Notes under the pieces: generated by a model
What the model was told of the DNA's origin: nothing
Databases searched by the model: none
The model's input: only the letters and a program-made list of their open reading frames with translations
Program-made: the position numbers and the translations under genes
Part shown: positions 1-6,773 of the stretch, piece after piece
Position numbering within the stretch: position 1 is the stretch's first letter
How the letters are laid out: the number at the start of each line of letters is the position of its first letter
Source of the DNA: a virus
Reading direction: 5' to 3' (one strand)
Length of the DNA: 25,773 nt
IMG/VR virus record: IMGVR_UViG_3300031758_000505
Span: 1-25,773 of that record

Positions 1-227
1 ATCACGGCAGCATCGTTAACACCATCGGGCAACGCATTTGCTGCAACCTGCAATGGCAAAAAGAAGAGAAAGCAAACGCATCTCTCATCGCTAACGCCCC
101 AACCATGCTGGAAGCACTCATCGACCTTGTCGCGCAGGTAGAAGACCTACCCAACGCACAAGACGCACAACCTTGGCTCGACAAGGCAAAGCAAGCAATC
201 GAAAAAGCAACCACTCCACAACCATGA
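1..227 (+). CDS. Partial small phage protein (C-terminal 74 residues)
   Basis: This reading frame is open from the left window edge (first full codon at position 3) and stops with TGA at 225-227, so only its C-terminal part is present. The visible protein contains NASLIANAPTMLEALIDLV. That resembles the 'NAxLIAxAPxLLEAL' signature common in small early phage proteins of unknown function, which I know from family recognition and have not searched. The rest is charged and probably helical. The stop overlaps the next start as ATGA, so the two are probably co-translated. Its own start is outside the window, and no function can be assigned. Confidence 0.7.
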   Translation, partial: HGSIVNTIGQRICCNLQWQKEEKANASLIANAPTMLEALIDLVAQVEDLPNAQDAQPWLDKAKQAIEKATTPQP

Positions 228-655
228 ACCTATACGAACACGCAGACGAACCAACACCGCCAAAACCCGACTATGACCCAGCAATGGACATAGACAACAT
301 CCACGGCATGGAACAACTAATCGACAATGCACCTGCACTGATCCAAGCCGCAGCGCATGTCATGCAGATCCAGCCCGACGACATCACGGGGAGACGCAGC
401 ACACAAGCTGTGTCCCTCGCTCGCAAGATCGTGATGACGCTCTGGTCAGAGTCTCATTCCCTCCAGGACTCATGCAAGATCGTCGGTAAGGCAAACCACA
501 CGAGCGCACACTATGCACGGCGCACAATCCATGAGAAACTCCTCCACTGTTCAAAGACCAGAGAGCGAGTCCGAAAAGTTTTGCAAAAATATTCAGAAAT
601 TATTCTTGCAGAGAGCAACAAAACCGAACAAAGTAACTCCAGCGCACCTTTCTGA
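224..655 (+). CDS. DnaA domain IV-like DNA-binding protein
   Basis: This 143-residue protein resembles the C-terminal DNA-binding domain (domain IV) of the bacterial initiator DnaA without the AAA+ ATPase part. Around residues 55-65 it has DITGRRSTQAVSLARKIVM, which parallels the basic loop and helix of DnaA (LLSKRRSRSVARPRQMAM in E. coli). Around residues 85-100 it has GKANHTSAHYARRTI, which parallels the DnaA signature GRDHTTVLHACRKI. The signature Asp is Asn here and the Val is Ala, so DNA specificity may differ. The N-terminal 40 residues are acidic, Pro-rich and probably flexible. An ATG at 224 overlapping the upstream stop was preferred over an in-frame upstream start at 173. It heads the recombination genes and may bind the phage origin or act as a regulator. 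The fold assignment is fairly secure; the role is inferred. Confidence 0.75.
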   Translation: MNLYEHADEPTPPKPDYDPAMDIDNIHGMEQLIDNAPALIQAAAHVMQIQPDDITGRRSTQAVSLARKIVMTLWSESHSLQDSCKIVGKANHTSAHYARRTIHEKLLHCSKTRERVRKVLQKYSEIILAESNKTEQSNSSAPF

Positions 656-3856: not shown

Positions 3857-4287
3857 CCATAATTGGAATTGACCCAGGCACTAATGGAGGCATCGCATGG
3901 ATCTGGCAGGGGAAACCGTGCGTAGAAAAAATGCCTGATACGCTCAAAGATTTATGGGAGCTATTAGACGAAATCGCAGATCATGATGATTGCAAAGCGT
4001 ACCTTGAAGCAGTCCACAGTTCACCTCAGATGGGCGTGAAAAGCGCATTCACCTTTGGTCAGGGACTTGGACAACTGGAGATGGCACTGACTGCTGCAAG
4101 AATCCCCTTTGAGCGTGTTCGTCCACAGGTATGGCAGAAAACCATGGGATGTATGTCAGGAGGGGATAAGAACGTCACCAAGCGCAGAGCGCAGGAACTC
4201 TTCCCATCGTTGAAGATCACCCACGCCACTGCCGATGCTCTGCTAATCGCTCAATACGGAATCGAGAAAGGAGGGAATCATGCCTAA
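3853..4287 (+). CDS. RuvC-like Holliday junction resolvase
   Basis: This 144-residue protein has an RNase H-like fold of the RuvC type, expected to cleave branched DNA made by recombination or replication before packaging. It opens with IIGIDPGTNGGIAW (catalytic Asp7), has Glu52 in AYLEAVHS followed by the conserved Phe/Gly-rich AFTFGQGLG near residues 66-73, then KNVTKRRAQELFP, and ends with HATADALLIAQYG carrying His124 and Asp128. The four acidic/His catalytic positions look intact and the length fits small phage RuvC-like enzymes. It starts in an ATGA overlap and its end overlaps the replication initiator start by eight bases, linking resolvase and replication genes. Confidence 0.88.
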   Translation: MTIIGIDPGTNGGIAWIWQGKPCVEKMPDTLKDLWELLDEIADHDDCKAYLEAVHSSPQMGVKSAFTFGQGLGQLEMALTAARIPFERVRPQVWQKTMGCMSGGDKNVTKRRAQELFPSLKITHATADALLIAQYGIEKGGNHA

Positions 4288-5008
4288 GCGATACACAGAA
4301 ACACAGAAATGGAGTGATCCATGGTTCCGATCCTTGTCACCCGATGCCAAGCTACTTTGGTTCTGGATGGTAGACAACTGCGACCAGGCGGGAATCATCG
4401 ATCCCGACTTCGCCCTCTGCGAGTTCCAGACAGGAATCAAACGAGCGTTTGAAAAGCTGCAGGAACTGGGTGATCGCATCGCCAGGATCGAGAATGGCAA
4501 ACTCATCATCGTTAAGTTCATCGACTTCCAGCAAGGACGTTTGTCTAGAGATTGCAAGGCGCACAATCCAGTCTTCCAATCCCTCGAAAAGAACGGAATG
4601 CTCGACGAGAATGGCGAAATCAAAGGGTATCCAAAGGGTATCCAAAGGGTATCGATAGGGTATCCATACCCTACTAGTAATAGTAATAGTAATATAAAGA
4701 GTAAATGTACTATTAAGAAAGAAGAGGACGAGACTCCACTCCCATACTGTTCAGATGAGTTCACATCGATCTGGAGCGACTGGGAGCGACATCTGAAAGA
4801 GAAGAAGAAGCCTCTCTCCCCGACTGCGAGGAAGATGCAGTTTGCCAAGCTGAGTGAGATGGGAGAGTCCAGGGCAATCATTGCGCTGAAATATTCGATG
4901 ACCAATGGGTGGCAGGGCATCTACGAGCCAGACAAGAGCAAATCGTCGGCAAGCACCTATGCCTCCCGACACAACGGCAGAGAACAGATCGAGATCCCAG
5001 ACCTATGA
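4280..5008 (+). CDS. Phage replication initiator (O/DnaD-like)
   Basis: This 242-residue protein has the layout of phage replication initiators. The N-terminal part is a winged-helix-like domain of about 110 residues (LSPDAKLLWFWMVDNCDQAG and IKRAFEKLQEL through LIIVKFIDFQQG). Next is a low-complexity linker of about 25 residues rich in Gly, Tyr, Pro, Ser and Asn. The C-terminal domain (IWSDWERHLKEKKKPLSPTARKMQ to YSMTNGWQGIYEP) resembles the tail of DnaD/O-type proteins that contact the helicase loader. The gene lies directly before a DnaC-like loader gene and overlaps it as ATGA. The linker is encoded by an iteron array and an AT-rich run, which is how phage lambda places its origin within gene O. 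The protein would bind these repeats and recruit loader and helicase. Confidence 0.82.
   Translation: MPKRYTETQKWSDPWFRSLSPDAKLLWFWMVDNCDQAGIIDPDFALCEFQTGIKRAFEKLQELGDRIARIENGKLIIVKFIDFQQGRLSRDCKAHNPVFQSLEKNGMLDENGEIKGYPKGIQRVSIGYPYPTSNSNSNIKSKCTIKKEEDETPLPYCSDEFTSIWSDWERHLKEKKKPLSPTARKMQFAKLSEMGESRAIIALKYSMTNGWQGIYEPDKSKSSASTYASRHNGREQIEIPDL
4622..4720. other. Probable replication origin: iterons plus AT-rich region inside the initiator gene
   Basis: Four consecutive 11-base units lie at 4622-4632, 4633-4643, 4644-4654 and 4655-4665: AAAGGGTATCC twice, AAAGGGTATCG and ATAGGGTATCC. The last unit forms an inverted repeat with ATACCC at 4666-4671. Directly after come three TAGTAA units at 4675-4692 and then AT-rich sequence to about 4720, a candidate unwinding region. 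The array lies in the linker-coding part of the initiator gene, as in the lambda O gene. Each unit also contains a 9-mer such as GTATCCAAA that matches the DnaA box TTATCCACA at seven of nine bases. Origin function is inferred from architecture. Confidence 0.65.
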
Positions 5009-5730
5009 ACGAAGAGCAAAAACAAGCAGCAAAATTCCTCGCCAATATCGACGAGATGATCGCAACCATGCCAGATGACGAAGAGACTCCAGCATTTGCA
5101 CAGAATTACCCCTCAGAGAGCGTTTCAGCGATTCCGAGGGTGGACACACCGCTAGTAGACTTCCCAGACCGTCACGGTCGAAATCTGGAGCTTTACGGAG
5201 AAGAATGGAAGAAGGCATACTTCAAGGCACTCGCAATCGCGGAAGCCGGCGGCATCATCATCGCCTATGGACTCCGAGGCACCGGCAAAACGCAAATCGC
5301 TTGCGAGATTGCTCGCAATGCCAAGTTCCAGAATCCGCACCTTCCCAAAAAGCTGTGGAATATGTCACATGTTCCTCTTTATCGGTCAGCAATCTATGCA
5401 AAGGCGATGGATATCTTCATCGATCTCAAAAACGGATTCAATCGGAAGAATGAACCAAGCGAGAAAGAAGTCATCCATCGATTAGTGGAAGCTGTGTTCC
5501 TCGTCATCGATGAGGCACATGTTCGTGGCGAGACGAAGTATGAGGACGATAAACTCACTCACATAATCGATAAGAGATACGATTCAATGCGCCCGACCAT
5601 GCTCATCACGAATCTCGAGAAAAAAGATTTTGCCGCTACCTTATCACCGAGTATTCTTTCGAGGATCTCCGAGATCGGTGGAGGCATTGAATGCAACTGG
5701 CAATCCTACAGAACCAAGAAAACACTGTGA
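5005..5730 (+). CDS. DnaC-like replicative helicase loader (AAA+ ATPase)
   Basis: This 241-residue AAA+ ATPase probably loads the replicative helicase at the phage origin. It has Walker A GLRGTGKT at residues 89-96, Walker B VFLVIDEAH at about 164-172, a sensor-1-like ITN near 201-203 and an Arg-finger-like SRI near 219-221. The first 70 residues are acidic and likely form the helicase-contact region. The ATG at 5005 in the ATGA overlap with the initiator gene was chosen over an in-frame start at 4909, because that extra part only repeats the initiator's coding DNA in another frame. The stop overlaps the methyltransferase GTG start as GTGA. The phage would need a host or distant phage helicase, as none is in the window. 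Confidence 0.88.
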   Translation: MNEEQKQAAKFLANIDEMIATMPDDEETPAFAQNYPSESVSAIPRVDTPLVDFPDRHGRNLELYGEEWKKAYFKALAIAEAGGIIIAYGLRGTGKTQIACEIARNAKFQNPHLPKKLWNMSHVPLYRSAIYAKAMDIFIDLKNGFNRKNEPSEKEVIHRLVEAVFLVIDEAHVRGETKYEDDKLTHIIDKRYDSMRPTMLITNLEKKDFAATLSPSILSRISEIGGGIECNWQSYRTKKTL

Positions 5731-6773
5731 ACACAAAAACAAGAAACGAAAATGTTATACCACCTCAACAAAGACAACTCAGAACACTCCATCTCTTTGC
5801 AGGAGCAGGTGGAGGAATACTTGCAGACATACTTCTTGGACATCGACCAATCGGAGCCGTGGAGATTGAGAAATACCCAAGACGAGTATTGCTCGCCAGA
5901 CAACGAGATGGGATCTTGCCAAAGTTCCCAATCTGGGACGATGTCAGCACCTTCGACGGCAAGCCGTGGAGAGGACAAGTTAACATTGTTTGCGGAGGAT
6001 TCCCTTGCCAAGACATATCCAGCGCAGGAAAAGGTGCTGGCATCGAAGGCGAGCGCAGCGGAATGTGGAAACACATGGCACGAATTATCGGTGAGATACG
6101 ACCGAGATACGCATTCGTGGAAAACTCATCTTTGCTTGTGGGACGAGGACTTGCCCTGGTCCTTGGTGACCTTGCCGAAATGGGGTATGATGCGAAGTGG
6201 GGTGTGCTGGGAGCAGTCGATGCCGGTGCGCCACACAGACGAGACAGAATCTGGATTATGGCAGACTCCAACATGCACACAGATCGAACTACGTTCAGAG
6301 GAGGCGTGGGAGAAGAAGAAGGTCAGCAGGAACAAATTAGGCAGGAACAGTCTTCCGCCTGGGACGCTACAAGAACAAGTGATGATGAGCGGATCAACAC
6401 CGTGCTGGGATTGGAACAAATCACCAAAGAATCCCAAGACCTGGCCGACTCCGCAAGCGAGGGACTGGAAAGGGTCAAGTGGCCGCAGTATGAAGGGGAT
6501 GGAACTAGACTTGCCCACAGCGGTAAAAAAATGGCCGACTCCGATAGTCAACGATTCGCACAACTGCATGATGCCACCAAGTCAACTAACGAGGAACAAT
6601 CTTCCAGGTGCAATGTTGAGGGAAGGAGAGAAACCCAATGGTGGACATCTGAACCCAACGTGGGTCGAGTGGCTCATGGGGTGGCCGCTAGAGTGGACAG
6701 GCTTAAAGCAATCGGGAATGGGCAAGTTCCAGCGGTGGCTGCGCTCGCATGGAAAATTCTAAGCAATCAATAA
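5727..6773 (+). CDS. C5 cytosine-specific DNA methyltransferase (Dcm type)
   Basis: This enzyme of about 348 residues would methylate cytosine C5 in phage DNA, probably to evade host restriction. Motif I (LHLFAGAGGG) is near residues 21-30 and motif IV (GGFPCQDIS, catalytic Cys94) near 90-98. Motif VI ENS is near 132-134, motif VIII RRDRIW near 171-176 and motif X (RLKAIGNGQVPAVAALAW) at the C-terminus. The target-recognition region between VIII and X is low in predicted structure and repeats an ADS motif (MADSN, LADSA, MADSD). A GTG at 5727 in the GTGA overlap is the preferred start; an ATG at 5691 is the alternative. A second frame of 336 codons runs through almost the whole gene, which probably constrains both proteins. 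Confidence 0.9.
   Translation: MNTKTRNENVIPPQQRQLRTLHLFAGAGGGILADILLGHRPIGAVEIEKYPRRVLLARQRDGILPKFPIWDDVSTFDGKPWRGQVNIVCGGFPCQDISSAGKGAGIEGERSGMWKHMARIIGEIRPRYAFVENSSLLVGRGLALVLGDLAEMGYDAKWGVLGAVDAGAPHRRDRIWIMADSNMHTDRTTFRGGVGEEEGQQEQIRQEQSSAWDATRTSDDERINTVLGLEQITKESQDLADSASEGLERVKWPQYEGDGTRLAHSGKKMADSDSQRFAQLHDATKSTNEEQSSRCNVEGRRETQWWTSEPNVGRVAHGVAARVDRLKAIGNGQVPAVAALAWKILSNQ
5752..6762 (+). CDS. Overlapping-frame protein embedded in the methyltransferase gene
   Basis: This frame of 336 codons lies wholly inside the cytosine methyltransferase gene, shifted by one base. It resembles a conserved family of phage hypothetical proteins that I recognise from elsewhere. Family marks are EDSLAKTYPAQEKV near residue 83, WKTHLCLWDEDLPWSLVTLPKWGMMRSG around 128-155, WPTPQARDWKGSSGRS in the middle, and HLNPTWVEWLMGWPLEWTGL close to the end. 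The W-P/Q-T-P motifs are the shifted reading of the ADS motifs of the methyltransferase: one DNA word, (a/c)tggccgactcc, yields both. Trp-rich content and normal start codons argue for translation. The first 70 residues look unconserved and the ATG at 5752 has only an A-rich leader, so the true start could be later. Function is unknown; a methylation-linked role is possible. Confidence 0.62.
   Translation: MLYHLNKDNSEHSISLQEQVEEYLQTYFLDIDQSEPWRLRNTQDEYCSPDNEMGSCQSSQSGTMSAPSTASRGEDKLTLFAEDSLAKTYPAQEKVLASKASAAECGNTWHELSVRYDRDTHSWKTHLCLWDEDLPWSLVTLPKWGMMRSGVCWEQSMPVRHTDETESGLWQTPTCTQIELRSEEAWEKKKVSRNKLGRNSLPPGTLQEQVMMSGSTPCWDWNKSPKNPKTWPTPQARDWKGSSGRSMKGMELDLPTAVKKWPTPIVNDSHNCMMPPSQLTRNNLPGAMLREGEKPNGGHLNPTWVEWLMGWPLEWTGLKQSGMGKFQRWLRSHGKF

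Follow-up and report, generated by a model that had tools for sequence, protein, structure and literature searches.

A probable phage replication origin inside the gene of its own initiator, with an iteron class coupled to one residue of the N-domain

Phage replication origins have, to our knowledge, rarely been mapped. The locus described here lies in a 25,773-base virus record (the window, a 25.8 kb fragment) and raises the question of what a short array of direct repeats does in the middle of a gene for a putative replication initiator. We conclude that the repeats are very probably the place where this phage starts replicating its DNA, lying within the coding sequence of the very protein that reads them. 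A like arrangement of repeats and ladder is found again in phages whose bacterial hosts differ widely.

Array, ladder and initiator gene

We found four contiguous 11-nt direct repeats with the core GGGTATC at 4621–4664, at spacings of 11, 11 and 11 nt (Table 1). The end of the array forms a perfect 8-nt inverted repeat, TAGGGTAT (4656–4663) and ATACCCTA (4666–4673), with a gap of 2 nt, and the three TAGTAA units further on are followed directly by TATAAAGAGTAAATG. All the elements named in the original prediction (four 11-nt GGGTATC repeats, an inverted ATACCC, three TAGTAA units and an AT-rich run) are thus present, and their placement in the linker of an initiator gene, with a DnaC-like loader gene adjoining, is borne out as well. 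Elsewhere in the window GGGTAT or ATACCC occurs in single copies only, at 2040, 5873, 6183 and 17310.

Table 1. Features of the candidate origin and its surroundings (window coordinates)
Feature	Positions	Strand	Remarks
Initiator gene, 242 aa	4280–5008	+	Winged-helix N-domain, disordered linker with array, helical C-domain
N-domain, residues 1–112	4280–4615	+	Predicted winged helix, mean pLDDT 90
Cys92 codon	4553–4555	+	Residue varying with iteron class; immediately precedes helix 93–104
Iteron 1	4621–4631	+	CAAAGGGTATC
Iteron 2	4632–4642	+	CAAAGGGTATC
Iteron 3	4643–4653	+	CAAAGGGTATC
Iteron 4	4654–4664	+	GATAGGGTATC
Inverted half-site ATACCC	4666–4671	-	2 nt past the last GGGTAT
Hexamer ladder, TAGTAA x3	4675–4692	+	Six consecutive 5'-TA[GA]-3' trios; proposed to serve in unwinding or single-strand loading
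A+T-rich continuation	4693–4717	+	TATAAAGAGTAAATGTACTATTAAG
Helical C-domain, residues 159–209	4754–4906	+	O-like PHROG 678 match at residues 133–232
DnaC-like helicase loader gene	5005–5730	+	PHROG 50, E 4e-32

Linker residues 121–149 are predicted to be disordered (pLDDT < 50). The low complexity that had been claimed for the linker holds for its TSNSNSNI part and does not extend to the remainder. The match to the PHROG family 'replication initiation O-like' (E 7e-12) is confined to the C-terminal part of the protein, and since no Pfam family matches the whole initiator at E 0.1 or better, the lambda O domain is not recognised in it. The N-domain fold weakly resembles the N-domains of DnaD and RepA_N (Z 5.9–6.3; 4pql 6.3, 5kbj 6.0 and 4pta 5.9, over 79 residues), a score equalled by unrelated winged helices. 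No solved structure related by sequence was found, and a Foldseek search of the PDB gave no match at E 0.001. Among isolated phages, Pseudanabaena phage Pan5 comes nearest (39% identity over residues 1–116); at the corresponding place it carries another repeat and a ladder of the GATAAA type. Geobacillus virus E2 is a further cultured relative.

Two other reading frames of the window deserve mention. A 160-aa protein encoded at 173–652 (+) resembles only the C-terminal DNA-binding domain of DnaA, with 31.0 bits against a cutoff of 31.5 for Pfam Bac_DnaA_C and a match to positions 350–435 of the NCBIfam DnaA model; DnaA boxes are not in excess in the window (3 matches, 2.1 expected). The 336-aa open frame at 5752–6762 (+) overlaps a cytosine methylase gene (5691–6773) in another frame and is likely a by-product.

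Constraint on the DNA

The repeat unit is read in all three frames, giving the encoded protein GYPKGIQRVSIGYPYP, and because a period of 11 cannot be divided by three, the repetition in the DNA does not reflect one in the protein. We compared the array with 20,000 synonymous resamplings that kept the protein and drew codons at the frequencies seen in eight window genes. At a shift of 11 nt, the best self-match over 33 positions is 31; the resampled maximum is 29, so that none of the 20,000 draws reaches 31. Four GGGTATC copies arose in a single draw, and a run of 14 with a 6-nt period was reached in 23 of the 20,000.

The linkers of relatives contain 546 hexamer matches, compared with a mean of 225.5 and a maximum of 294 after synonymous shuffling. 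Codon choice in the ladder is biased for aspartate (GAT:GAC 104:22 in the ladder, 319:268 outside) and borderline for lysine, with AAG higher in the ladder in 16 of 21 genes when paired by gene (p 0.06). Hexamer excess and codon bias together indicate that the ladder is more than a protein tract. A stronger argument for a function at the DNA level comes from copies of iterons plus ladder that lie outside genes.

Distribution among relatives

An 18-base pattern, made up of a pair of GGGTAT sites at a spacing of 11 nt plus one ATACCC, is found in 89 viral stretches and in 17 stretches of bacterial genomes. By N-domain profiles, the array lies within an initiator ORF with a related N-domain in 77 of the 89 viral and 10 of the 17 genome stretches. 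According to their record titles, the ten genome cases belong to Gastranaerophilales, Romboutsia (two), PVC, Pseudomonas (two), Chitinophagaceae, Nitrospinota, Bacteroidetes and one lineage that we take to be Elusimicrobia-like; several of the ten are MAGs and possibly misbinned. The remaining 19 of the 106 pattern stretches include likely chance matches (for example, L104, L112, L115 and L119). Among records with unexplained arrays, 8 in one group of 10 and all 6 in another yielded no N-domain, but since most of these records are short fragments, this shows little.

Four further searches used the N-domain only, with no condition on repeats; of 318 genes taken from them, 177 were scored after redundant entries and those below 520 nt had been dropped. 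Since the search alignments had been seeded with array-bearing sequences, the resulting fractions carry a bias and cannot be extended to phages at large: a 6-mer recurs in the linker at a distance of exactly 11 nt in 45/60, 22/45, 10/38 and 26/34 non-redundant genes, compared with maxima of 15, 11, 9 and 12 after synonymous shuffling. In the first set the same score shows no peak in the N-part (8/60, shuffle maximum 9) or the C-part (9/60, maximum 11). The signal is weak in the A4 set (the 10/38 above), most of whose members have no in-gene array, and a GGGTAT palindrome is found anywhere in the record in 3 of 27 records of array-poor relatives tested. Among 599 candidate stretches listed in one scan, at least 559 are relatives. 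We also inspected 17 genes of isolated phages, including Pan5 and JQ, in which iterons were judged by eye and ladder runs were scored.

Lattice, polarity and ladder

The half-sites of 32 GGGTAT-class relatives form a regular lattice, in which neighbours on the same strand are 11 nt apart (26 pairs) and inverted neighbours 8 (27 pairs) or 14 nt (4 pairs). The array ends with an inverted site in 28 of these 32. Once identical arrays had been dropped (163 to 143), 66 of 143 arrays have a ladder of 6-nt period in the 100 nt on their 3' side, and none has one on the 5' side; applied elsewhere, the same detector responds once among 163 N-domain stretches and not at all among 163 gene ends. The sequence of the ladder is clade-specific (GATAAG, GAAAAG, GGTAAA, AGTAAT and others).

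The window's ladder, with its six perfect trios beside the presumed initiator sites, resembles the DnaA-trios of Bacillus subtilis oriC, and every third base of its complement is T, as in the DnaD recognition element 5'-TnnT-3' of that origin, as both are described in excerpts of the source (PMC10201434). The likeness to oriC holds in the window and is not general among relatives. As a general rule for the family, the DnaA-trio was rejected: of 60 linkers, 42 have A at every third base, and synonymous shuffling still leaves 40.1, so that amino-acid choice explains the pattern. Strict trio runs of at least five are present in 5/60, 1/45, 10/38 and 22/34 relatives, and GGTAAA (L002–L004), GCTAAT (Javan271) and the 7-nt and 5-nt ladders described next do not fit.

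Several relatives carry variants of this arrangement. In Krappator27, Javan271 and BUCT702 (L127, L128 and L130), the ladder, as judged by eye, precedes the repeats, the opposite of the usual order. Three initiators starting with MKTRI (L014, L056 and L072) have a 7-nt ladder (AAATCAT) in place of the 6-nt one, which in L072 extends beyond the stop codon. In L138, a 5-nt ladder (CAGGA/GGACA) follows a GGGTAT palindrome. Six relatives (L029, L046, L051, L088, L091 and L101) have a second array in the opposite orientation ∼171 nt upstream, within the sequence coding for the N-domain. In the initiator genes L156 and L184, and by eye also L154, an HNH endonuclease domain replaces the iteron/ladder linker between N- and C-domain.

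Residue 92 and iteron class

To relate the repeat sequence to the protein, we reduced the 177 genes to 143 (sets A1, A3 and A4, with A5 left out) and these to 85 with a clear majority half-site, to which the window was added. Iteron class was then compared with each N-domain column in 3,683 pairs matched by overall identity. Residue 92 is the top column, with an excess mismatch of 0.57 (next column, 0.28). Among disjoint pairs drawn from the three clear classes, the fraction with different residues at position 92 is 0.89, against 0.11 among same-class pairs; no other of the 112 columns shows so large a contrast, column 94 being next (0.78 versus 0.30). The tree used in the pair analysis was built with columns 88–97 excluded and is poorly resolved, and a sign test on its starred branches comprises 1–2 pairs and has no power. 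At residue 92, the GGGTAT class has Cys in 31 genes and Ser in 2, the GGGGCT class Asn in 16 and a gap in 1, and the ACAGTT class Val in 11 and Ser in 1.

For an out-of-sample test, GGGGCT and ACAGTT arrays were found by DNA alone, and residue 92 was read in new, non-redundant KRF-type genes, from which domains above 90% identity or exceeding 35 gaps had been dropped. Here, GGGGCT goes with Asn in 27 of 29 genes (one Asp, one gap), ACAGTT with Val in 3/3, and GGGTAT with Cys in 22 of 36 (Asn 8, Ser 5, Val 1). Asn versus any other residue separates GGGGCT from GGGTAT with a Fisher p of 7e-9, a value without correction for relatedness. By these comparisons, the coupling of residue 92 to iteron class is thus real, although it is no strict code because GGGTAT tolerates residues other than Cys. 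In the predicted model, residue 92 stands directly before helix 93–104 and outside the classical recognition helix (56–66). The original prediction had expected related phages to keep the repeats while repeat sequence and initiator N-terminus change together, and the check on relatives is positive: the repeats persist while their sequence and residue 92 of the N-domain vary in concert. The coupling amounts to a directly testable recognition rule.

The module outside the gene

Copies of iterons plus ladder occur between genes in L100 and, following a gene of 364–371 aa, in L021, L044, L050 and L059. Two of these intergenic modules (L021 and L044) share their records with initiator genes L324 and L326, which have neither array nor ladder. 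The modules lie at 27,396 and 9,697 and the initiators at 31,627 and 5,717, so that in both phages they are ∼4 kb apart, with the module upstream. As the two phages are close relatives, we count this as one relocation event and not two.

The phages with the relocated module (G001 and G002) also have single GGGTAT palindromes upstream of another gene (L454 and L457, at position 1500). The L457 palindrome directly follows a promoter-like sequence, presumably of the Bacteroidetes-like type, and is a possible operator.

Origin function and alternatives

Judged by sequence comparison, an origin within the initiator gene is well supported by DNA-level constraint, arrays in related initiators, the coupling of residue 92 and intergenic copies. 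From the features computed here (the array, its constraint as DNA, its recurrence in related initiators, its polarity, the residue 92 coupling and the copies outside the gene in relatives), we infer binding, unwinding and loading as follows. The winged-helix N-domain would bind the GGGTATC half-sites, a step with comparative support, and with one half-site per 11 bp the sites would all face the same side of the double helix. The polarity of the complex may be set by the last site, which is inverted. Strain could then open the adjoining hexamer ladder, and the C-domain, together with the neighbouring DnaC-like loader, would load the host's replicative helicase onto the strand thus exposed; both steps are modelled on lambda, SPP1 and pSK41 as excerpts of the respective sources describe them (PMC7466680, PMC6316719, PMC5703833). 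As the best explanation of the whole, we hold it highly likely that 4621–4717 is the phage origin, bound by the initiator's own N-domain, opened at the ladder and loaded with helicase. Cumulative GC skew is flat, with no turning point near 4.6 kb, and is uninformative in a fragment of this size; since the window is only a fragment, a second origin may exist elsewhere.

The array might instead be an operator, bound by the initiator to repress its own operon while replication starts elsewhere. The single palindromes upstream of another gene in G001 and G002, with L457 after its promoter-like sequence, would suit such a role. However, in the window and in 87 of the 106 pattern stretches, the array lies ∼340 nt inside the gene (median offset), and the purine-rich ladder is found on one side of it only; we regard the operator as unlikely. 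ParR-type proteins also bind 11-bp direct repeats, and a partition or centromere-like site would share unit length and tandem spacing with the array, but nothing else. We consider it extremely improbable, given that none of the ten window proteins scanned has a Par-family Pfam match, that the coupled residue belongs to the initiator's own domain and that a helicase loader gene comes next.

It could also be argued that the repeats have no DNA function and arose as a by-product of replication slippage and of a linker that is flexible and either charged or polar. Both the in-frame position of the ladder in most genes and the equal frequency, after synonymous shuffling, of runs with A at every third base fit this explanation. 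The iteron period of 11 does not, nor do the hexamer excess and codon bias of the ladder or the five intergenic copies of iterons plus ladder, and we judge the by-product very unlikely.

Returning to the origin, a bolder proposal is that a portable origin grammar is common to phages of several bacterial phyla. It would comprise half-sites on an 11-bp lattice, their sequence partly dictated by residue 92, with an inverted half-site at the end, and a short-period ladder of fixed strand polarity acting like the trio/DRE of oriC to direct unwinding and helicase loading, the unit residing in the linker or outside the gene. We put this forward tentatively, as rather doubtful in its full form; because the trio likeness is not general in the family, a trio/DRE role is kept within this bold reading only. 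If the grammar holds, the origins of hundreds of uncultured phages could be located from sequence, and the ladder would be a natural variant series for asking how strands open and how the helicase gets its direction.

Comparison with known systems

Origins within initiator genes are already established for lambda, SPP1, TP901-1 and pSK41. For an iteron shared across phyla, the ladder or the residue coupling, we found no description in the open-licence literature; partial descriptions may exist in older work outside it. The description of the locus as lambda-like stands for the layout, with iterons and then an A+T-rich stretch in the initiator linker and the loader adjoining, and fails for the parts: Pfam recognises no lambda O domain, and the units are 11-nt half-sites on a strict lattice. 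According to excerpts of the source, lambda ori likewise has iterons and an A+T-rich tract in the middle of initiator gene O, next to the loader gene, but the lambda iterons are longer, palindromic and separated by intervening sequence (PMC7466680); in the window, the half-sites abut and the last alone is inverted. The window also differs from lambda in that its loader is DnaC-like.

RepA_N initiators have their origin boxes centrally in the initiator gene, as in the window. The N-domain of pSK41 RepA_N binds boxes centrally within rep, and the central linker encoded by the ori is dispensable, according to a partial text that also ascribes a phage-like N-domain to pPR9 (PMC5703833), which suggests that such parts are exchanged. 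In contrast, the window protein has no RepA_N Pfam match and only the weak fold likeness given above (5kbj), and the iterons of pSK41 and pTZ2162 are described, in the portion of the source used, as having inverted sub-repeats of 8–9 bp (PMC7145576).

Excerpts on other replisome organizers describe proteins of TP901-1 and Tuc2009 that bind repeats in their own genes serving as ori (PMC8965321), and SPP1 gp38, which binds direct repeats in its own gene acting as ori, with a second origin 13 kb away (PMC6316719); the latter is a precedent for copies outside the gene. By these descriptions, the window shares with all three the direct repeats inside the organizer gene, whereas the same excerpts state neither a shared iteron nor a residue coupling (PMC8965321, PMC6316719). 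The window protein is not among the matches of PHROG 6251 (replisome organizers); its relative L191 matches this family over residues 4–60 (E 7e-4) and TN-type relatives match it at E 2e-48 to 4e-7. A viral fold search lists replisome organizers.
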